This document shows positions 16,187 to 26,080 of a stretch of DNA of 26,080 nucleotides, piece by piece. Location: the IMG/VR virus record IMGVR_UViG_3300021964_000446, positions 1 to 26,080 of that record; one strand, written 5' to 3'. Below the pieces are notes generated by a model, which worked only from the letters and a program-made list of their open reading frames with translations, was not told the DNA's origin and made no database searches. Positions within the stretch are counted from its first letter, which is position 1. Each line of letters opens with the position of its first letter. The translations under genes and the position numbers were made by a program. Source of the DNA: a virus.

Positions 16187-17814
16187 TACCAAAATCCTCT
16201 TTTAAGTAGGTCGCCATTTGCATATTTCTGCAGGCTGAATACCTGGCTAACTTCCCTGCGACTCTGTACCGGAAGCAGCAAAACGTTTAATTCAATCTTG
16301 GTTGGCACATAGGTTGGCGAGTTTTGTCCAAGGTTAGGCCCACTTGGAGTGGTATTGTTTGGATCCGCACCGGTTGGTAGCCCATTAATCAGTGCCCTTA
16401 TTCGACTGCTAGGAAGTGTTGAATTATTTGTGTTTAGATTTTGTCTAAATTGCAATGTTCCAGCCTGTCCATTTATCTGTGTTGCGTTGGCCCTAATGTA
16501 GTTAACATCATCTGGCAAGTTATAGTTAAATTGTGTAATTACCACTGGATGTTGGTTAAATTGATACTCACCAAATCCGCTTAAAAATAAAACTGGAGGT
16601 GGGCTTCCCCTGTCAGCATCCTGTCCGTAAAACATTTTGCTTGCTGCTTTTAGGAATGTGATTACAGCCAGCATGTAGTTTGCTTCTGCGGTATCTTGTG
16701 CTGTAAAAGTTGCATCCATGTTTATCTCGCCAACGTCACTGCCTTGGTACCAGTAGTGCTTATAGTTGCTGTGTGTTGGCTCATAAGGGGTGTACCTTGC
16801 ACGATAATTGAGATTTACTCTTGGAGTATATGGAAATATAATGCCATCTGTTACTCTGAGTGGTGCCAATAAACGATTAGCAGGATCATTGTAAAAGTAC
16901 GGAGCATTTGGCGCAAGTTGTAGCCTAACACGCCAATCTCCCTTGCCAATGCTTGGTTCTCTGGTAGCACGAATTGCCGCTTGGCTTTTTAAACGTTCCA
17001 AGGCGGCGCTGTTTACCTGTGGTACTGGATCTGGTGGAGTAACCGGAAAATCTTCTTCGTCTTCGTCATCTTGACCGTATGGGTCAACACCATCTGCTGG
17101 TGCTCTCTTAAGGTTTGCTCCAAACTCTAGTTCTTGAAATGGATCTTCACCAGGATAACCCGTGTCGTCGGTATCTTCAGTATCGGTGGAATTTAGGTTA
17201 GATCGTTGCTCCTGAGCCCTTTGTCTATTACTCTCTACCTGTTCGGCGGCTGGACTAGTAAGAGAAACTCCTTCTGCGCTGGCATTTTGAACTCTTTGTG
17301 CCTGTGCTCGTGCCCTGTTATTTTCTTGGGTATTAACTGGTTCGTCTTGAGTTGGTACCTCAGGCTCAACTGAAATATCTCTTTGAATATCTGAGAACTC
17401 ATCAAAACTTTCTTCTGCTTGCTGTTGTACTTCAGGATCTTGGGCAGGTGATCTTTGTGCTTGTGCTCTTTGACGATTATTTCTTCTAGTTGGAGCTTCT
17501 GCTTGTTCTGCTACTGGACTTTGTGCAGGACTTACGGTTGGAGGTGCTTGCGTGGCAGCACCAGCAGGAACATACTGATCAAGTTCTAATTGTGCTTCAA
17601 AGATCTCTCCGTCTACTTCAATCATGCTGGCCGCGGTAGCTTCCAATGATCTTTCTAATCTTTCGCTTTCAGCAAACTGTTGAAAAGTATTGAATCCTTG
17701 CTGTTGTATAGTGGCATTGAGTGCATCTATCCGGGAAGTGGTAGACGTATATTGTTGAATCAATCGTTTTTTCTGATTTTGTAAAGCAATCAAATCATTT
17801 TGAGTGTAGGCCAC
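16186..17814 (-). CDS. Baseplate/tail-tube-cap structural protein (gp48-like, tentative)
   Basis: First gene of the leftward block, 542 residues from a GTG start. The start is chosen because AGGAG lies six bases upstream of the GTG at 17814; an in-frame TTG at 17847 would lie upstream of the late promoter box and lacks a ribosome site. Residues about 5-85 are helical and probably coiled coil. Residues about 90-280 are low-complexity, acidic and Gln/Ala-rich, with three copies of an NRxRAQxQR unit. The C-terminal 270 residues form the conserved part: RVTDGIIFPYTPRVNLNYRA, THSNYKHYWYQGSDVGEIN, DATFTAQDTAEANYMLAVI and PPPVLFLSGFGEYQFNQHPV. I associate this block with tube-cap (gp48) type proteins of marine myoviruses, but the gp48 label is not certain. 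The end overlaps the gp53 start by one base. Confidence 0.82.
   Translation of the reverse strand: MAYTQNDLIALQNQKKRLIQQYTSTTSRIDALNATIQQQGFNTFQQFAESERLERSLEATAASMIEVDGEIFEAQLELDQYVPAGAATQAPPTVSPAQSPVAEQAEAPTRRNNRQRAQAQRSPAQDPEVQQQAEESFDEFSDIQRDISVEPEVPTQDEPVNTQENNRARAQAQRVQNASAEGVSLTSPAAEQVESNRQRAQEQRSNLNSTDTEDTDDTGYPGEDPFQELEFGANLKRAPADGVDPYGQDDEDEEDFPVTPPDPVPQVNSAALERLKSQAAIRATREPSIGKGDWRVRLQLAPNAPYFYNDPANRLLAPLRVTDGIIFPYTPRVNLNYRARYTPYEPTHSNYKHYWYQGSDVGEINMDATFTAQDTAEANYMLAVITFLKAASKMFYGQDADRGSPPPVLFLSGFGEYQFNQHPVVITQFNYNLPDDVNYIRANATQINGQAGTLQFRQNLNTNNSTLPSSRIRALINGLPTGADPNNTTPSGPNLGQNSPTYVPTKIELNVLLLPVQSRREVSQVFSLQKYANGDLLKRGFW
17203..17481 (-). repeat. Three NRxRAQxQR protein repeats in the tube-cap-like gene
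   Basis: The units are coded at 17452-17481 (NNRQRAQAQR), 17293-17322 (NNRARAQAQR) and 17203-17232 (SNRQRAQEQR), separated by acidic and Gln-rich linker. The first and third also share an upstream SPxAEQxE element. They are direct repeats at protein level in an otherwise low-complexity region, suggesting duplication within the linker. Confidence 0.75.
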
Positions 17815-17820
17815 ATCATT

Positions 17821-17825
17821 CTCCT
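17821..17825 (-). promoter_or_regulatory. Ribosome binding site that decides the GTG start at 17814
   Basis: The minus strand reads AGGAG followed by six bases (AATGAT) and then GTG. This is the only strong ribosome site near the start of the leftward block. The ATG inside the spacer is in another frame, so GTG is the best start for the tube-cap-like gene. Confidence 0.7.
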
Positions 17826-17831
17826 GTCTGT

Positions 17832-17839
17832 TATTTATG
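17832..17839 (-). promoter_or_regulatory. Late-type promoter box for the leftward virion block
   Basis: The minus strand reads CATAAATA, one base from the T4 late promoter TATAAATA. It is 17 bases before the GTG at 17814 and six bases before its AGGAG site. The same octamer with almost identical spacing lies before gp6 (10041-10048). gp55, expected to read such boxes, is encoded divergently next to it. Confidence 0.7.
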
Positions 17840-17865
17840 GCAAGCAAAAACGGCTAAGTTAATGA

Positions 17866-17893
17866 TTGACAACCCCGCTCAGACCTGTATAAT
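17866..17893 (+). promoter_or_regulatory. Consensus sigma70-type early promoter for gp55
   Basis: TTGACA (17866-17871) and TATAAT (17888-17893) are both perfect matches to the bacterial housekeeping hexamers, separated by 16 bases. Transcription would start near 17900. The ACGGAG ribosome site at 17906-17911 then lies six bases before the ATG at 17918. This implies that host RNA polymerase can make gp55 early, without any phage factor. Confidence 0.88.
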
Positions 17894-17917
17894 AAGTACA
17901 TTCCTACGGAGATTTCA

Positions 17918-18823
17918 ATGGCTATCAAGCAACCTAAAAAAGTAAATTATCTTAATAATCGTGACATTTTGAAAGAAATTCACCGCAGTAAAAACACCTA
18001 CTGTTCGTATCTAGATCGTGAAACTGATCATCAATATGATATTATTTTACCCAGCGTTGACAAAATTAATCAACGCACTGTAGCCGAAGCAAGACGCAAT
18101 CGAGCAGATCGTATCAAAAGAGAGACAGGAGAAATACTAGATCCTAAAAAAGATATAGCAAACACAGATCTTGTTTTCCGTATCACTTGTTGGGAACACA
18201 TACCCAAGGTACCAAAGAAACTTACAAAAGCACAGGAAAAGAAAAAATCAAAACTGGAAGAACTACTCGAAATGGACGATGTAGACTATGAAGATGATGG
18301 TTTACAAGAACTTATGGAAGATGTCAAACAGGATCTCAACTATGTAAAACTGCCATTCCCACCATTCTATCATTATCGGATCAACGAAAACAAACAGCCA
18401 TACCTAGTAGGCAAAAGCCACTGGAAAGGAGACTTAGATTCAGGAGAGTTTCGCAAGGATCATGGCATGATGACTCCAAAACTAGCACACATGTTTATCA
18501 AACTGTGCGAACGTTATGCTACACGAAGCAACTGGCGTGGCTATACCTACAACGAAGAAATGCGTGGACAAGCACTGCTACAACTCAGCCAGATTGGATT
18601 GCAGTTTGATGAGAGTAAATCACAAAACCCATTTGCATACTACACAGCGGCCATTACCAACAGTTTTACAAGGGTGTTGAACATTGAAAAGAAAATGCAG
18701 AACATTCGTGATGACATCTTGGAACAGAATGGCTTGAACCCAAGTTATACAAGACAGTTTAAAAACAGTCGCGAAGCAAAGGTACTTGCAGAGTACGAAG
18801 CAGGCGGCGCAGTTGAAGAATAA
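17918..18823 (+). CDS. 55: Late-transcription sigma factor, gp55-like, with long N-terminal extension
   Basis: The C-terminal half matches the T4 gp55 family, the divergent sigma factor that directs host RNA polymerase to TATAAATA late promoters with help from the sliding clamp. Recognisable parts are a helix with FIKLCERYATRSNWRGYTY, NEEMRGQALLQ, then DESKSQNPFAYYTAAITNSF and IEKKMQNIRDDILEQ (residues about 190-270), which parallel the T4 gp55 core ending in the NPFAYFT and KEKKQ region. The 301 residues exceed T4 gp55 (185). The first 165 residues are extra: YLNNRDILKEIHRSKNTYCS, a basic segment, an acidic lysine-rich linker (about 100-140), then PFPPFYHYRI. I do not see a clear clamp-binding tail. 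A consensus early promoter and ACGGAG site precede the ATG. The last 38 bases overlap the next gene. Confidence 0.87.
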   Translation: MAIKQPKKVNYLNNRDILKEIHRSKNTYCSYLDRETDHQYDIILPSVDKINQRTVAEARRNRADRIKRETGEILDPKKDIANTDLVFRITCWEHIPKVPKKLTKAQEKKKSKLEELLEMDDVDYEDDGLQELMEDVKQDLNYVKLPFPPFYHYRINENKQPYLVGKSHWKGDLDSGEFRKDHGMMTPKLAHMFIKLCERYATRSNWRGYTYNEEMRGQALLQLSQIGLQFDESKSQNPFAYYTAAITNSFTRVLNIEKKMQNIRDDILEQNGLNPSYTRQFKNSREAKVLAEYEAGGAVEE

Positions 18824-20408
18824 CCAAGGTTATCTTGAGCAATACATCTATAAAGAAATTGTTTACTTAAAAAAATATTTGTATTTGCCTAGCAGTAGTT
18901 TGTATAAAAAATGCAAAGAATTATACAAGCCCAGTTACGCATCCAATGAAAGATTAATCTTTAGCTTTCAAGGAGCAATACCGCGAGACTTATTGGCCCA
19001 TCTTCAACGTGTAATAACTCATTTAGATATTTCTGATTGTTTTGTACTAATATGTAATACTCATCAAGGTACAAAAAAATTAATCAAAGATGTGCATGAT
19101 GCTTACAGTATCGATGAGGACAATATTTTTGAACTCTTGAAGATTGATTTACATGATGATCACCTGGTTGAAAATTTACCAGATTGCAAACCTTTGTTAA
19201 ATCCGCCCGAAAGCATGTGCATGTATCCTTGGACACAACTTGAGTTCAAGCCCAATGGCACAGTGCGTCCTTGTTGTGTATACAAGCACGAAATTAAAGA
19301 TGAACTTGGCAATGTAATAAATCTCAATGACAACAACAATATTAAATTTGAAGACTTGTATTTTAGTCACGACGTTAAACTGTTACGTGATCAATTCCGC
19401 CAAGGAAAATATCCATCAGGCTGTAGTAAGTGTTGGAACGAAGAAAAAATTGGAAAACAAAGTGATAGAGTACTATATCAATGGCTTGCTAGAGATAAAC
19501 TTTTTAACATTGATTATGAATCTGAAAATTTTGAAAACCTAACCAGTTTTAATTTGAAACTTGGATCCATGTGTAATCTTAGTTGTAGAATTTGTAACAT
19601 GAATTGGAGTAGTAGTGTGGCAGCAGAAATATTAAAAGATGTTCCTGTATCTGAGAAGAAACAACACGAAGCATATCTAGCACTTCGACGAGGCGAGTGG
19701 CCTAAGAAAAACAAAAATTTTTGGAGCGAACTAACCAAGTTGCTTAAGAATGTAGACTACATTGAATTTGCTGGCGGCGAACCACTGTTAAGCCAGCATC
19801 ATTGGAAAGTTTTAAACATAGCTTGTGATTTAGGCTATGCAGAAAATATTGTTTTAAGATACAATTCAAATGCTACAGTTCTGCCAACACAAAGTCAACT
19901 GGATCTCTGGAAACAATTTAAATTAGTACGTTTGGATCTCAGCATCGATGACATTGAAGATAGATTTGATTATCAAAGATACGGGTCACAATGGGAAATT
20001 GTACAAAATGTAGTATCGGTTATAAATCAAGACAAAATTAAAAACATTGTTACCCAAGTAAGTATTACTATCAACATGCAAAATGTTTACTACATACCTG
20101 AACTAGTTCAGTGGGCAGACCAACAGAACTTTGACCATGTTTGGTTTAATCACCTACAGGCCCCTGAATGCTTAAATTTATCAAGCATGAATTCAACTTT
20201 TCAACAGCAAGTTATTGATAAATGGAATAATACCGATTTCGGTCGACACACCGCCCAAATTCATGTATTCTTAGACTACATCAGTAGTATCGACCTATCT
20301 GGGCCAGATGAATTCATCAAATACACAAGAAAAATTGACAATGTTAGAAATCAAAACTTTGCAGACGCACATCATGAAGCTGCACTTATACTGGGATATG
20401 TTAAATGA
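18786..20408 (+). CDS. Twitch-type radical SAM protein, substrate unknown
   Basis: The radical SAM core is clear: CNLSCRIC (Cys263, Cys267, Cys270) fits CxxxCxxC for the SAM-binding [4Fe-4S] cluster, and GGEP (330-333) is the SAM-contacting motif. Before it lies a second cysteine set expected to hold an auxiliary cluster: Cys145 in CMYPW, Cys163-Cys164 in RPCC, and GCSKCW (213, 216) followed by EEKIGKQS. This order fits the twitch-domain radical SAM family. The first 140 residues match nothing I know. Such enzymes often modify peptides or proteins; here the target is unknown. No ATG is available near the start. The frame can begin at TTG 18786, or at TTG 18813 with AGGCGG five bases upstream, so the gene starts inside gp55. 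The stop overlaps the gp47 start (ATGA). Confidence 0.88.
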   Translation: MQSTKQAAQLKNNQGYLEQYIYKEIVYLKKYLYLPSSSLYKKCKELYKPSYASNERLIFSFQGAIPRDLLAHLQRVITHLDISDCFVLICNTHQGTKKLIKDVHDAYSIDEDNIFELLKIDLHDDHLVENLPDCKPLLNPPESMCMYPWTQLEFKPNGTVRPCCVYKHEIKDELGNVINLNDNNNIKFEDLYFSHDVKLLRDQFRQGKYPSGCSKCWNEEKIGKQSDRVLYQWLARDKLFNIDYESENFENLTSFNLKLGSMCNLSCRICNMNWSSSVAAEILKDVPVSEKKQHEAYLALRRGEWPKKNKNFWSELTKLLKNVDYIEFAGGEPLLSQHHWKVLNIACDLGYAENIVLRYNSNATVLPTQSQLDLWKQFKLVRLDLSIDDIEDRFDYQRYGSQWEIVQNVVSVINQDKIKNIVTQVSITINMQNVYYIPELVQWADQQNFDHVWFNHLQAPECLNLSSMNSTFQQQVIDKWNNTDFGRHTAQIHVFLDYISSIDLSGPDEFIKYTRKIDNVRNQNFADAHHEAALILGYVK

Positions 20409-21421
20409 GTAATCTTTTTAAAAAAGCCATAGTGTTCACGGACATTCACTTTGGGCTGAAAAGTAACAGCCTTCTACACAACCAGGACTGTGAAAAATTT
20501 GTAGAGTGGATCATTGAAACAGCAAAACAACGAAATATCTCAACTGGACTATTTCTTGGTGATTGGCATCATCATAGAGCTAGTATTAACCTTCATACTC
20601 TTGATTATTCATTGAGAGCACTAGAAAAACTCAATGCAGCATTTGATCAATTTTACTTTATTCCTGGCAACCATGATTTGTACTACAGAGACAAACGTGA
20701 CATCACAGGAGTAGAGTGGGCCAAACACTTGCCAAACATCCACATCTGCAACGATTGGTTTGAAGATGGTGATGTGGTTATTGCTCCTTGGCTGGTTGGC
20801 GATGATCACAAACGCATTCAAAAGATGAGTGCTCAGTATATCTTTGGACACTTCGAACTGCCGCACTTTAAAATGAACGCAATGGTAGAGATGCCAGACC
20901 ACGGTGAGGTAAAAGCAGAACACTTTGGACAGTACGGCAAGGTGTTTTCAGGACACTTTCACATGCGGCAAACCAAGAACAACATCAACTACATTGGTAA
21001 TGCTTTCCCTCATAACTTTTCGGATGCAGGAGATGCTGAGCGTGGTTGTATGATACTGGATTGGGGAGGTGAGCCAGAATACCTTGCTTGGCCAGATCAA
21101 CCGTTGTACAAAGTGCTAAATCTTAGTACAGTAATAGATAACGCCGCTACAATACTCAAACCCAAAATGCATGTGCGAGTAAACTTGGATATAGACATAT
21201 CTTACGAAGAAGCAAACTTTATTAAAGAAAAATTTGTAACAGATTACAATCTGCGTGAAATGGCACTAATACCAAACAAGCGCGGCGCACTTGAAGACAC
21301 AGTAAGTGTTGGCGAAATTAAATTTGAAAGTGTAGATCAGATTGTAACTGATCAAATCACAAACATTGAAAGTGAGTTTTACGATAACAAACTACTGTTA
21401 GAAATATATCAAAATCTATGA
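20405..21421 (+). CDS. 47: Recombination nuclease subunit gp47 (Mre11-like)
   Basis: The 338-residue protein is the calcineurin-like nuclease half of the T4 gp46/gp47 complex, which resects DNA ends during recombination-dependent replication and host DNA breakdown. The metallophosphatase motifs are in order: DIH (Asp13, His15), GDWHH (Asp53), GNHD (Asn89, His90, Asp91), GHF (His149) and GHFH (His184, His186). All expected metal ligands are present. It follows the first radical SAM gene with a four-base ATGA overlap and overlaps gp46 the same way, so the pair is probably translated in a coupled manner. Length is about normal for the family. Confidence 0.95.
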   Translation: MSNLFKKAIVFTDIHFGLKSNSLLHNQDCEKFVEWIIETAKQRNISTGLFLGDWHHHRASINLHTLDYSLRALEKLNAAFDQFYFIPGNHDLYYRDKRDITGVEWAKHLPNIHICNDWFEDGDVVIAPWLVGDDHKRIQKMSAQYIFGHFELPHFKMNAMVEMPDHGEVKAEHFGQYGKVFSGHFHMRQTKNNINYIGNAFPHNFSDAGDAERGCMILDWGGEPEYLAWPDQPLYKVLNLSTVIDNAATILKPKMHVRVNLDIDISYEEANFIKEKFVTDYNLREMALIPNKRGALEDTVSVGEIKFESVDQIVTDQITNIESEFYDNKLLLEIYQNL

Positions 21422-23181
21422 TTCATATAAAAGACCTTACGGTTAAAAACTTCATGAGTGTGGGCAATGCCACACAGGCCATTAACTTTGACAGGCAAGA
21501 CCTTACACTGGTACTAGGTGAAAACCTAGACCTAGGCGGTGATGGTAGCCGTAATGGTACAGGTAAAACCACAATCATTAATGCACTCAGTTACGCACTG
21601 TATGGCAGTGCATTAACCAACATCCGCAAGGATAACTTGATTAACAAAACCAACGGCAAGAACATGTTGGTAAGTTTAGAGTTTGCGGTTAACGGGCAAG
21701 AATATCGTGTGGAGCGGGGACGTAAACCTAACCTGCTCAAGTTCTTTGTGAATAATCAAGAACAGGAAACAACGGACAACGCTCAGGGCGACAGCAGACA
21801 AACACAAGCAGAGATTGAACGTATATTGGGTCTCAGCCACGACATGTTCAAGCATGTTCTGGCGCTGAACACATATACGGAACCGTTCCTAAGCATGCGA
21901 AGCAATGATCAACGTGCTATCATTGAAGAACTATTGGGTATTACACTGCTTTCGGAACGTGCTGAAGCAATTAAAGAACGTATAAAAGAGACCAAAGATG
22001 CGCAGAAAGAAGAAGAGATGCGCATCAAAGCGGTGCAAGAAGCCAACAAACGAATTGAAGACCAAATTGTAAGCCTAGAAAAACGTAGAACCCTTTGGGA
22101 ACGCAAGAAAACAGAAGATGTTGAAGGTTTAACCACCGCTATCGACAGCCTAAGCCATGTAGACATTGACGCAGAGATCGCCGCACACAGGGCTTTAGAC
22201 ACGTTCTACGACACCAAAAAAGCCATTGAAGATGCATACAAATGGATACGCAGTATAGATCAAGACAACGCTAAACTAGAAAAATTACAAGCAAAACTGG
22301 AAAAAGAGATTGAAGACTTACAAAGCCACAAGTGTTATGCTTGTGGACAAGAACTGCACGACAACAAGCATGAAGAAATACTAGAAGGCAAACGTGCTAC
22401 ACTAGAAGAAACAGCACATCAAATACTTGCTAATCAAACACAAGAACAAGAACACAGAGATACTCTTGCTGAACTAGGTGAACTGGGCACTGCACCCACG
22501 GTGTTTTACGACACCGTAGAACAAGCATACGAACATCAGAACACACTTAGTGGACTACAACAGCAACTAGAAAATCGCAGTGCTGAAACAGATCCGTACA
22601 GTGAACAAATTGAAGAAATGAAACAACAGGCGCTTCAGTCTGTGAACTATGATGTTATAAATGAACTAACCAGACTGCAAGAACATCAGGACTTCTTATA
22701 CAAACTGCTTACCAACAAAGATAGTTTTGTGCGTAAACGTATCATTGATCAAAACTTGAGTTACTTGAATGCAAGACTTACGCACTATTTGGATAGAATT
22801 GGATTGCCACATCAGGTTGTGTTCCAAAACGATCTTAGTGTAGAAATAACCGAACTTGGTAGGGACTTGGACTTTGATAACTTGAGTCGAGGCGAGCGCA
22901 ACAGACTTATACTTTCAATGAGTTGGTCGTTCCGTGACGTTTGGGAGAGCTTGTACAAACCAATCAACCTGTTGTTCATCGACGAGTTAGTCGATTCAGG
23001 CATGGATAGCAGTGGTGTTGAAAATGCACTTGGACTGCTCAAACACATGGCTAGAGAAAGACACAAGAGTGTATGGTTAGTGAGCCACAAAGATGAACTA
23101 GCAGGGAGAGTTGGTAATATTCTGAAGGTAATCAAGGAGAACGGATTTACCAACTACAACACAGACGTGGATGTACTATGA
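21418..23181 (+). CDS. 46: Recombination nuclease subunit gp46 (Rad50-like ATPase)
   Basis: The 587-residue SMC-type ATPase partners gp47. The N-terminal Walker A loop is NGTGKTT (about 46-52). A long coiled coil runs through the middle and is split by a zinc hook CYAC (Cys306, Cys309). The C-terminal half carries the ABC signature LSRGERNR (from about 489) and Walker B LLFIDELVDSG with Asp522 and Glu523. A final SHKDE supplies the switch histidine. All parts needed for ATP-driven end processing are present and the length is ordinary for T4 gp46. No clear ribosome site is seen; the ATGA overlap with gp47 suggests reinitiation. The stop again overlaps the next gene (ATGA). Confidence 0.95.
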   Translation: MIHIKDLTVKNFMSVGNATQAINFDRQDLTLVLGENLDLGGDGSRNGTGKTTIINALSYALYGSALTNIRKDNLINKTNGKNMLVSLEFAVNGQEYRVERGRKPNLLKFFVNNQEQETTDNAQGDSRQTQAEIERILGLSHDMFKHVLALNTYTEPFLSMRSNDQRAIIEELLGITLLSERAEAIKERIKETKDAQKEEEMRIKAVQEANKRIEDQIVSLEKRRTLWERKKTEDVEGLTTAIDSLSHVDIDAEIAAHRALDTFYDTKKAIEDAYKWIRSIDQDNAKLEKLQAKLEKEIEDLQSHKCYACGQELHDNKHEEILEGKRATLEETAHQILANQTQEQEHRDTLAELGELGTAPTVFYDTVEQAYEHQNTLSGLQQQLENRSAETDPYSEQIEEMKQQALQSVNYDVINELTRLQEHQDFLYKLLTNKDSFVRKRIIDQNLSYLNARLTHYLDRIGLPHQVVFQNDLSVEITELGRDLDFDNLSRGERNRLILSMSWSFRDVWESLYKPINLLFIDELVDSGMDSSGVENALGLLKHMARERHKSVWLVSHKDELAGRVGNILKVIKENGFTNYNTDVDVL

Positions 23182-24209
23182 ACATCGCCTGGGATCATTG
23201 GCATATTGAAGTAAGCAGTATCTGCACATTGAAATGTCCAAGGTGCCCAAGGGCCGAAGTACCTGAGAGTTTACTTAACACATCACTGAACCTAGATTTT
23301 TTCCAAAACAACATCAGTGCTAACGTTGTGCGCCACATGAAAAAAATTACTTTCTGTGGCAACGATGGTGATCCAATTTATTGCAAAAGTTTTTTGGAAA
23401 TTTGTGCATGGCTTAAAAGTGTAAATCCTTCCTTGCAGTTAGTGATAGTAACCAATGGTAGTTACAAGAGTGCAGAATGGTGGGACTCGTTAGGTAGTAC
23501 TCTCAATGAGCACGACGAAATTCATTGGAGCATTGACGGTTGGGACCAAAAGAGTAACGAGCAGTACCGTGTTAATTGTGATTGGAATAGCATTGTTGAA
23601 GGCATACTAGCGTTCCGACAGGCCAATCAAACTTCATACAGATTATGGGCTAGTATTGCCTTTGCTTTCAATGAAAACCATTTACAGCGGTTACAAGATC
23701 TTGCAAAACTTTGGCAGTTTGATGCTTTCCAACTTACAAAAAGCACAAAGTTTTCATTAAAATATCCTGAGATTTACAATTCGCAGGACAATCTACAACC
23801 AAAGAACAAAGATCTAATTGCGCTCGGTGATAGATTTCAGCGGGAGGTTGTAGAACTAAGCGATAAAGTTAGACCAGGTTCGGATCTTAAACAAATGTAC
23901 AAAAACCGTGCTAAAAATCTAATTACCAGTACAAAGGCTTTTGGTTTATGTCACATCGGAGCCAAAGGAGTATTTTTAAACAGTCGTGGAGAATTTTATC
24001 CTTGTTGTTGGGTTGCAACTCGTTACGAACATAACCAGCAATGGCAAACATTAGCCAAAAACAAATTTAATCTGTATCATAACAGTGTTGAATCTGTAGT
24101 TAACGATCAGTTTTGGCAAACAGAGTTTATGAAGTTTGATACTCTTGAATGCCGGACCAAGTGTACAAAAAATAAACTCACAGATCTGGAATACGTGTCT
24201 GAATGGTAA
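23178..24209 (+). CDS. Radical SAM protein with SPASM-like C-terminus, substrate unknown
   Basis: This 343-residue protein has CTLKCPRC (Cys16, Cys20, Cys23), the CxxxCxxC site of the radical SAM cluster. The next element reads CGNDGDP (60-66) where most relatives have GGEP; a Gly-Asp-Pro form is still consistent with SAM binding. A C-terminal cysteine set (LCHIG Cys258, YPCC Cys276-Cys277, ECRTKC Cys325 and Cys329) looks like a SPASM-type auxiliary-cluster region. It differs from the other radical SAM protein in this window, where the accessory cysteines come first. SPASM proteins commonly modify peptides, but no precursor peptide is evident nearby. The gene overlaps gp46 by four bases (ATGA), so it is made with the nuclease. 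The 66 bases after it hold a likely promoter. Confidence 0.87.
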   Translation: MNIAWDHWHIEVSSICTLKCPRCPRAEVPESLLNTSLNLDFFQNNISANVVRHMKKITFCGNDGDPIYCKSFLEICAWLKSVNPSLQLVIVTNGSYKSAEWWDSLGSTLNEHDEIHWSIDGWDQKSNEQYRVNCDWNSIVEGILAFRQANQTSYRLWASIAFAFNENHLQRLQDLAKLWQFDAFQLTKSTKFSLKYPEIYNSQDNLQPKNKDLIALGDRFQREVVELSDKVRPGSDLKQMYKNRAKNLITSTKAFGLCHIGAKGVFLNSRGEFYPCCWVATRYEHNQQWQTLAKNKFNLYHNSVESVVNDQFWQTEFMKFDTLECRTKCTKNKLTDLEYVSEW

Positions 24210-24215
24210 GCAACA

Positions 24216-24244
24216 TTGACACAATAAATTACTTGTATTATTAA
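24216..24244 (+). promoter_or_regulatory. Probable sigma70-type promoter before the GIY-YIG gene
   Basis: TTGACA at 24216-24221 is a perfect -35 match. After 17 bases, TATTAA at 24239-24244 matches the -10 hexamer at four of six bases. It lies in the 66-base gap between the second radical SAM gene and the endonuclease gene, so the last two genes may be transcribed on their own as well as by read-through. Confidence 0.6.
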
Positions 24245-24275
24245 CCAGGACTAAGTAAGAGCCCAGAGGAGCACT

Positions 24276-24704
24276 ATGGATTGGACCTATAATGGTAAGA
24301 CGGTAGAAGAACTACCCAAAGACTGCGAAGGATTTGTTTACCTTATCACCAATCTAACAAACAACCGCAAGTATGTGGGCAAGAAGCTGGCCAAGTTTTC
24401 CAAGACACGGCCACCGCTTAAAGGCAGAAAAAACAGGCGTAGAGAAAAAGTAGAAAGTGATTGGCAGGATTACTGGGGTAGTTCAGACAATCTAAAGGCA
24501 GACGTAGAAAAGTTAGGCGCAGACAATTTCACACGAGAGATCTTGCACTTTTGTAATAGTAGAGGCTTGATGAGTTATCTGGAAGCAAAAGAGCAGTTCG
24601 ATAGAAGAGTTCTAGAAACAGACGAATACTATAATGGCATTATAAACGTTCGTGTAGGCAGTAGTAAAATTCTCCAAGAAGGCTTGAAAAATATTAAAAC
24701 ATAG
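24276..24704 (+). CDS. SegE-like GIY-YIG endonuclease, probably a free-standing homing enzyme
   Basis: The 142-residue protein matches the GIY-YIG nuclease fold as seen in T4 SegE-type enzymes. GFVYLITN (19-26) stands for the GIY part and KYVGKK (32-37) for YIG. A basic stretch (RPPLKGRKNRRREK) follows, then DWQDYWGSS (62-70) and a helix with YLEAKEQF (101-108), whose Glu103 or Glu106 would be the metal ligand. Such genes spread by cutting alleles that lack them and repairing from their own copy. It is small, has no separate DNA-binding domain, and sits between genes rather than in an intron. A GAGGAG site lies four bases before the ATG at 24276. A structural or DNA-repair nuclease role cannot be excluded. 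Confidence 0.82.
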   Translation: MDWTYNGKTVEELPKDCEGFVYLITNLTNNRKYVGKKLAKFSKTRPPLKGRKNRRREKVESDWQDYWGSSDNLKADVEKLGADNFTREILHFCNSRGLMSYLEAKEQFDRRVLETDEYYNGIINVRVGSSKILQEGLKNIKT

Positions 24705-24714
24705 GTAGATCGTT

Positions 24715-25734
24715 GTGATAAAAATTTATGTAGGTGATATCTATGAAGACTTGGCTGTGTATGCATGCAGTCAACATTCAGATGCAAAATTGCTATCAAC
24801 AAACAATCTAAAAGAATTTTATTCTAGTAGCAGTGGTGTATATTATACCGCATTGGGAGATCTACCTAAAGACGAATTAACAATTTACAATATTCTCAAC
24901 AAGGCAGACCAAATTGAATATTTTACTCCACAAACTTGGTGTGATGGTAAGTCTGTTGAAACAGATTTTTTAGAAAGTGTGCAAGGTGCAACAGAACTTA
25001 TACTGAGTTACTTTGCCAAAGAAAAACAAAATGTTATTGGTTTAAATTATTTAAATCAGCATTATGTTGATGTGCCTGAGATAAAATCAGACGAACACGA
25101 TCTAGAAAAACGAAAAACAGATGCGTCACAACTTTGGGTGGCAGGATGTAGTATAACTTTTGGAAAAGGTGTAGATAAAAATCAACGCTACGGAAATTTA
25201 GTTGCACAACATCTTGATAAACCGGTAAGTCATCTGACTTGTGTTGGTAGCAGTATACCATGGCAGGCTGACCAAATTTTAAGATCAGACTTACGCAAAA
25301 ATGATATTTTAATTTGGGGGCTCACGTCAGAGAATAGATTTGATTATTGGTCTGAGGTGGATACAGTAAGGCATGTAAATCCAAACTTTAGAAAATCATC
25401 TTACAATAGCACTGATCCATTGTGGATGAATGACAAAACTGTAGAACGAATGCTTTTGCATGAAAATACGAAATACCAGGCATTAAAAAACATTTTACAG
25501 GTAATAAATTATTGCAAAAAAACAAATACAAAACTCTTACTATTAGGCTTATTAAACAGTAAAACACTATCAATGCTACTAAATCAATTTCCGTTCTATT
25601 TTTATTACTTAGACTTAAACAATTACCAGCATTACAAAGACTTAGGCACCGATAACGAACATCCAGGTCCACAACAACACAGGCTCTATGCAGATTACGT
25701 CTTGAAAAAACTCAAACAACTAGAATACATTTAA
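24715..25734 (+). CDS. SGNH-hydrolase-like protein with unknown N-terminal domain
   Basis: Residues about 140-330 resemble an SGNH/GDSL hydrolase: AGCSITFGKGV (143-153) would be block I with Ser146 as nucleophile, CVGSS (176-180) a glycine turn, and DNEHPGPQQH (from 313) the DxxH block with Asp313 and His316. Such enzymes hydrolyse or transfer acyl groups on sugars and lipids, and in phages they are often linked to surface glycan handling. The first 130 residues form a separate part with no motif I can name. There is no signal peptide. The start is GTG at 24715, eleven bases after the endonuclease stop, with only a weak AGGTAG upstream. Substrate and expression stage cannot be read from the sequence. 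Confidence 0.75.
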   Translation: MIKIYVGDIYEDLAVYACSQHSDAKLLSTNNLKEFYSSSSGVYYTALGDLPKDELTIYNILNKADQIEYFTPQTWCDGKSVETDFLESVQGATELILSYFAKEKQNVIGLNYLNQHYVDVPEIKSDEHDLEKRKTDASQLWVAGCSITFGKGVDKNQRYGNLVAQHLDKPVSHLTCVGSSIPWQADQILRSDLRKNDILIWGLTSENRFDYWSEVDTVRHVNPNFRKSSYNSTDPLWMNDKTVERMLLHENTKYQALKNILQVINYCKKTNTKLLLLGLLNSKTLSMLLNQFPFYFYYLDLNNYQHYKDLGTDNEHPGPQQHRLYADYVLKKLKQLEYI

Positions 25735-26080
25735 CAGCACACAAGGTTAGCGGGCCAGATATCAATACCGCTGTGGAAAAACTGATGGATAAAATCAGAC
25801 ACGCAACACGCTGAGCGAAAGCCCATTGGCTGTAGGTTGGCGTAGAATCAATGCTGTGATTCGAAAACACATACACTCCTAAAAACCGTGTACTAGGAAC
25901 GAAGTAGCGGGTAATGTATTATACATAAAGCATAAGAGCGTCTTATGCACTACATATAGTACATAATGTCGACGCAGGTAGGGAAAGGTCAGAGCCCATG
26001 GAGTAGTGTATAAACAAAACACCTGCTTCCAAGGTCTAGGCTGGGGCATACTCACAGGAAGTACCAAGAAGATGGAACCT
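25735..26080 (+). other. 346-base tail without a convincing gene; several inverted repeats
   Basis: All three forward frames carry frequent stops, and the only reverse frame of note (25879-26067) has no recognisable content. Perfect inverted repeats are AGCGG/CCGCT (25749/25768), CTGAT/ATCAG (25782/25794), AGCC/GGCT (25820/25828), GAATCA/TGATTC (25845/25857), TCCTA/TAGGA (25877/25894), the 13-base palindrome 25914-25926, GCATAAG/CTTATGC (25930/25942), ACTA/TAGT (25949/25957), GCAGGT/ACCTGC (25974/26021) and CTTCC/GGAAG (26026/26057). Short stems are expected by chance in 346 bases; the six- and seven-base ones are only modestly above that. A structured RNA, a leader region or a decayed gene are all possible. 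No U-rich terminator follows any stem. Confidence 0.35.

Follow-up and report, generated by a model that had tools for sequence, protein, structure and literature searches.

Two radical SAM genes in a predicted early operon

We analyzed a virus record of 26,080 bases (IMGVR_UViG_3300021964_000446; the whole record is called the window here), in which two radical S-adenosylmethionine (rSAM) genes, rsamA and rsamB, flank the recombination nuclease genes gp47 and gp46. The + strand carries, in order, gp55, rsamA, gp47, gp46, rsamB, a SegE-like GIY-YIG endonuclease gene, and a GDSL/SGNH-like gene, and upstream of gp55 the minus strand carries a block of genes for baseplate and virion proteins. Genes that recur in fixed order in relatives are called constant, the gaps between them slots, and the contents of these gaps cargo; pLDDT is the predicted local distance difference test score of a structural model.

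17866 to 17893, + strand: sigma70-type promoter (TTGACA-N16-TATAAT, 12/12 consensus) upstream of gp55; likely the early operon promoter
17918 to 18823, + strand: gp55-like late sigma factor, left constant gene (PHROG 12791, E 2e-71)
18786 to 20408, + strand: rsamA, rSAM protein with N-terminal Twitch domain, 540 amino acids, slot 1 cargo (NF033640 match; pLDDT 83.7)
19218 to 19433, + strand: rsamA N-terminal Twitch cysteines C145, C163, C213, and C216, without variation among 22 aligned sequences; in sequence, the domain can be aligned to the auxiliary domain of BtrN
19572 to 19595, + strand: rsamA rSAM motif C263-x3-C267-x2-C270, invariant in 22 aligned sequences
20405 to 21421, + strand: gp47, SbcD-like nuclease subunit, constant gene (PHROG 100, E 2e-62)
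21418 to 23181, + strand: gp46, SbcC/Rad50-like subunit, constant gene (PHROG 77, E 7e-104); its stop overlaps the next ATG
23178 to 24209, + strand: rsamB, rSAM protein with C-terminal Twitch domain, 343 amino acids, slot 3 cargo (PHROG 21308, E 2e-24; pLDDT 89.5)
23223 to 23246, + strand: rsamB rSAM motif C16-x3-C20-x2-C23, invariant in 34 aligned sequences
23949 to 24164, + strand: rsamB C-terminal Twitch cysteines C258, C276, C325, and C329, invariant in 12 closer sequences
24276 to 24704, + strand: SegE-like GIY-YIG endonuclease, right constant gene (Pfam PF19835, E 9e-36)
24715 to 25734, + strand: GDSL/SGNH-like protein (called by eye; no significant match in searches against families), fourth variable slot

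Successive gaps from gp55 to the GDSL/SGNH-like gene measure -38, -4, -4, -4, +66, and +10. The 4-bp overlap is ATGA at all three internal junctions (rsamA/gp47, gp47/gp46, and gp46/rsamB). The start of rsamA is a TTG at 18786, giving a 38-bp overlap with gp55; a second in-frame TTG at 18813 would also overlap gp55. These junctions agree with a sequence-only reading of this DNA, which had further predicted that the five genes from gp55 to rsamB are made together. Indeed, besides the overlaps, the upstream promoter matches the consensus at every position and no + strand terminator-like site was found in 17500-26080. The promoter is kept in L006, the nearest relative, and promoter-like sites matching at least 10/12 positions occur upstream of gp55 in 52 of 96 relatives, versus 4.9 in shuffles; by contrast, the upstream regions of rsamB are not enriched in such sites (4/120 versus 3.5 expected from shuffles). 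For these reasons, a single operon with co-transcription and translational coupling is a well-supported prediction. Rfam gave no match.

Slot contents differ between close relatives

We compared the window with L006. Nucleotide identity is 91% in gp55, 88% in gp47, 88% in gp46, and 95% in the GIY-YIG gene, yet similarity breaks at gene boundaries and all four gaps differ. Both rSAM genes are missing from L006. The gp55/gp47 gap, the site of rsamA in the window, is empty; the gp47/gp46 gap, which holds nothing in the window, contains three open reading frames (ORFs), including an amidinotransferase gene (L006:3277-4431) whose product matches HsvA, StrB, and AGAT; and in the gp46/GIY gap an unrelated 330-residue ORF replaces rsamB, starting at the same ATGA. 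The GDSL-like gene is likewise missing, with similarity restarting at window position 25714.

The same pattern extends to 80 related gp47 loci that were fetched and parsed with automatic slot calls, some of the contigs being fragments. The constant order is gp55-gp47-gp46-GIY-YIG nuclease, and the GIY-YIG gene is present in nearly all loci with sequence beyond gp46. The gaps are filled in 17/76 (gp55/gp47), 46/75 (gp47/gp46), and 41/61 (gp46/GIY) cases. rSAM proteins make up 67 of the 175 inserted ORFs and fall into three classes; the other cargo comprises B12-type rSAM, sulfotransferase, DUF6071/GDSL, AMP-binding, TctC, short-chain dehydrogenase/reductase (SDR), and amidinotransferase genes and many unknowns. 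All three slots are common to only 12% of pairs that are at least 90% identical in gp46+gp47, and sharing of the gp47/gp46 and gp46/GIY slots is equally low at >90% core identity and at <70% (all pairs). These alignments show that phages otherwise near-identical exchange what their slots hold, and cargo turnover outpaces core divergence. Given the dozens of contigs, assembly error is an unlikely cause of this pattern.

Several further arrangements were seen at these loci. An SDR is apparently fused to an rSAM protein in one (L085:6679-8391) and adjoins rSAM genes in others (L026:9356-11052, L059, L063, and L064), hinting at a two-step oxidoreduction. A TctC-type solute-binding protein lies beside an AMP-binding enzyme as slot cargo in L083:11030-13440 and in L080. 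Beyond the slots, window 25714-25885 and L006:7665-7841 contain no convincing long ORF and are 88% identical between the two phages; this stretch has no match in Rfam or isolate phages.

rsamA and rsamB are both Twitch-type proteins

The product of rsamA belongs to NCBIfam NF033640 (N_Twi_rSAM, here N_Twi; 302.6 bits, cutoff 170). Like the family it has an N-terminal Twitch domain followed by the rSAM core, but it differs from the family by an extra N-terminal region of ~140 residues. Its four N-terminal accessory cysteines are invariant, in keeping with the Twitch type first proposed for it. To our knowledge, no function has been assigned to NF033640. The match of rsamB to Pfam Radical_SAM is below cutoff (E 4e-4), but in the alignment of its family (34 members) the rSAM motif is conserved, as is a Twitch of four cysteines on the C-terminal side. 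The pattern CX9-15GX4C is present in 40/40 motif-bearing relatives, and the spacing C258-x17-C276 ... C325-x3-C329 after the core is that of BtrN-like Twitch rSAM proteins. The sequence-only reading had called rsamB SPASM-like. We rejected this label in favor of Twitch, since PF13186 scores 16.1 bits against a cutoff of 21.5 and only four accessory cysteines are conserved, not the seven-cysteine SPASM signature.

The accessory cysteines lie on the N-terminal side of the core in rsamA and on the C-terminal side in rsamB, as had been noticed. hhalign finds both the Twitch domains (probability 91%, E 1e-6) and the cores (98.9%) of the two proteins homologous; therefore, the domain order is permuted. 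Loss of cluster residues was not seen, as the rSAM motifs are invariant in all aligned sequences of both families. The median ratio of nonsynonymous to synonymous substitution rates is 0.085 for the rsamB family and 0.088 for the rsamA family, computed on pairs of relatives, the window's own two genes having no close homologue. By these measures, rsamA and rsamB are intact enzyme genes of families under purifying selection.

The structural models are good, and their Foldseek matches are general, taking in maturases of ribosomally synthesized and post-translationally modified peptides (RiPPs), anSME, viperin, and BtrN. BtrN, a 2-deoxy-scyllo-inosamine dehydrogenase, gives the top target-normalised TM-score for rsamB (0.62) and resembles it in joining an rSAM core to a Twitch domain with an auxiliary cluster, but the two share 11% identity, and the Twitch of rsamA sits on the other side of the core.

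rsamB keeps its position and rsamA groups with arrays

The sequence-only reading had described the two rSAM genes as welded to the nuclease genes as a pair with a possible joint role. Neither idea held: among 58 complete blocks, the rsamB family is present in 9/16 with and 20/42 without N_Twi (Fisher p=0.77), neither family is found in 22, and the nearest relative has neither gene, so we rejected a fixed pair, and a joint role is not supported. The nearest approach to a true rSAM pair is an adjacent C-terminal-Twitch and N-terminal-Twitch gene pair conserved in the gp46/GIY slot of four loci (L007:5842-8054, L035:12770-15008, L046:13477-15751, and L057:4183-6451).

Independent, variable positions characterize the pair and rsamA, N_Twi genes being found in all three slots (7/11/4), but not rsamB. 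Scanning with an rsamB profile added 78 loci. In 74 of these the gene occupies the gp46/GIY slot; two such genes are present at 27 loci, and the -4 overlap at 35. The proposed attachment to the nuclease genes thus survives for the rsamB family at the gp46 end, where, as described above, upstream regions lack promoter enrichment. Distances of rsamB and gp46 are weakly correlated (Mantel r 0.16), rsamB being more divergent among phages than descent along with gp46 would predict, and we set aside vertical descent of the two together. Because of this weak correlation and the constant slot, rsamB is, on present comparisons, a gene exchanged between phages yet landing at the same place. A cellular origin was also rejected: a pattern-limited scan of 84,980 species genomes gave only two matches, both probably phage: the contig of one also carries a lysozyme-like ORF and, judged by eye, further phage-like neighbors, and that of the other, 7.6 kb long, includes an N_Twi array.

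For rsamA, a viral scan with the single protein gave no matches, and an alignment-based scan was needed. The N_Twi family is larger than that of rsamB, and the latter scan mostly brought up arrays, in which 4-6 N_Twi genes stand together at other places of large genomes. Some arrays include rsamB-like members, and carbamoyltransferase, AMP-binding, or GDSL-like genes are often close by. Within an array the N_Twi genes differ from one another, and the same paralogue types return across dozens of viral contigs (L164-L243; e.g., L164:2184-11669 and L141:4548-12131); isolates provide few relatives. Long contigs gave 2-11 N_Twi matches in 17/18 cases. Among slot members, only the window's rsamA clusters with 58 proteins from arrays in the N_Twi tree (support 0.98). 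The tree has 9 slot/array changes versus ~35 in shuffles, so genes pass only occasionally between slots and arrays.

Relation to known phage systems

A literature search combining gp46/gp47 with rSAM returned nothing relevant within the literature searched. The closest precedent is the interchangeable rSAM/amidinotransferase module of the Campylobacter phages CP220 and CPt10 (Timms 2010, PMC2853527). These phages are T4-related, like the window, and have 11-12 rSAM genes per genome; five rSAM genes lie beside a putative amidinotransferase in the module, which is swapped between close relatives and whose CP220 copy also has two nucleotide-sugar-transferase-like genes. As with a CP220-type module, close relatives differ here in the rSAM genes found at the same site, both between the window and L006 and across the slot survey. 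However, the CP220/CPt10 module is one cluster of 10-12 genes, whereas here a gap of the gp55-gp47-gp46-GIY block takes up a single gene or a few; the rSAM families also differ, and rsamB is tied to the gp46 end.

As far as the portions available of two other reports go, a T4-like environmental genome has 12 rSAM genes (PMC5332604) and pelagimyophages carry rSAM cassettes in host-recognition clusters (PMC7029224). By these accounts, such phages are T4-like and aquatic like the window, carry as many as 12 rSAM genes, and acquired part of them as cassettes. These accounts make no mention of the gp47/gp46 slots, and the pelagimyophage cassettes sit in the host-recognition cluster. In the Pelagibacter phage isolate Mosig, MoaA-like genes lie beside an ArnB-like sugar aminotransferase and a carbamoyltransferase gene. 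Pseudomonas phage MIJ3, the closest isolate by gp46 (50%), has gp55-gp47-gp46 without cargo. Nuclease genes are known to mark boundaries of phage gene exchange, as in homing endonuclease gene (HEG) islands (Barth 2023, PMC10448857). The window resembles these in having cargo beside a homing-type nuclease at an exchange boundary, but differs in that a single SegE-like GIY-YIG gene lies on the right side only and is fixed in nearly all relatives, so that active homing would be no more than a possibility here.

Interpretation and alternatives

The explanation we favor, with confidence about equal to our doubt, is that rsamA and rsamB are exchangeable cargo of the slots of the gp55/gp47/gp46/GIY-YIG/next-gene block and tailor a glycan or small molecule early, alongside gp46/47. 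Cargo would move by homologous recombination through the constant genes, possibly aided by the SegE-like nuclease at the block edge. An incoming gene whose ATG overlaps the preceding TGA would need no promoter of its own and would be made from the early gp55 promoter. In each protein, an rSAM cluster and a fully ligated Twitch [4Fe-4S] cluster may oxidize or otherwise modify the substrate at carbon, as in BtrN-type dehydrogenases. A sugar, glycoconjugate, or small metabolite is the most likely substrate because neighboring and alternative cargo includes amidinotransferase, carbamoyltransferase, sulfotransferase, SDR, GDSL-like, and AMP-binding genes; a candidate would be a host-surface or virion glycan remodeled by the phage. 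Shared expression would suffice, with no tie to gp46/47 biochemistry, and the two proteins would be co-expressed tailoring enzymes rather than a welded pair. Several points weigh against this explanation: we infer the substrate; annotation is lacking for most slot cargo families; peptide maturases (SkfB, sactipeptide thioether enzymes, and anSME) and viperins are among the fold matches too, none of them close; the GIY-YIG gene stands on both sides of most comparisons, so that its homing is a possibility only; and the window is a 26 kb fragment.

Those fold matches bear on two alternatives. Maturation of a phage or host peptide (RiPP-like) or of a virion protein would fit the homology of Twitch and SPASM domains to RiPP maturases, the match of one of the profiles (A1) to 8vpo (TigE) and SkfB, and the presence of sactipeptide thioether-forming enzymes and SkfB among the top Foldseek matches. 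The block, however, has no intergenic room for a precursor ORF from gp55 to rsamB, which led us to reject a local precursor, though one could lie at a distance; residues 1-107 of rsamA are predicted as alternating strands and helices rather than a winged helix like that of RiPP recognition elements (RREs; judged by eye on the model, with no dedicated RRE search); and the surrounding cargo is sugar- or metabolite-like. We therefore consider peptide maturation rather unlikely. Less probable still is a counter-defense role with viperin-like chemistry, in which a nucleotide signal, or an analogue of one, would be produced or degraded by the enzymes. Viperins are among the top structural matches of rsamB, PADLOC pVip matches reach 27-41 bits, and early expression of fast-swapping cargo would suit an arms race. 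Those pVip matches are nevertheless weak and span the core only, viperin_w_prok scores 36 bits for rsamA against a cutoff of 180 with no match for rsamB, and we rejected viperin/pVip membership on these grounds; viperins, moreover, are not known to have a Twitch domain.

The remaining alternatives appear highly improbable. Modification of the gp46/47 nuclease, or of DNA ends during degradation or recombination, by rsamB (and rsamA) would account for the adjacency of the rsamB family to gp46 and its frequent overlap. Yet the same gp46/47 often goes with slots that are empty or filled by unrelated genes, as in the blocks with neither family and in MIJ3, and the correlation of rsamB with gp46 distances is weak. 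DNA base hypermodification, to which we give a similarly slight chance, would suit the T4-like context and a combination of rSAM with carbamoyl- or amidino-transfer chemistry, but no base-modification gene was found in the block and the slot survey gives no pointer to nucleobases.

Beyond the preferred explanation of exchangeable tailoring enzymes, we tentatively suggest, as a possibility short of probable, that aquatic T4-like phages hold a shared, rapidly traded pool of Twitch rSAM enzymes, in gp47-gp46 slots and N_Twi arrays, that jointly make or modify a so far undescribed molecule carried by phage or host, with the gp46 stop serving as a docking point for rsamB-type genes. These results highlight how T4-like phages trade enzyme genes, with single genes entering early-operon gaps where translational coupling is ready-made, and they point to a large, nearly uncultured pool of Twitch rSAM enzymes. 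A substrate for one of these enzymes would probably explain many.

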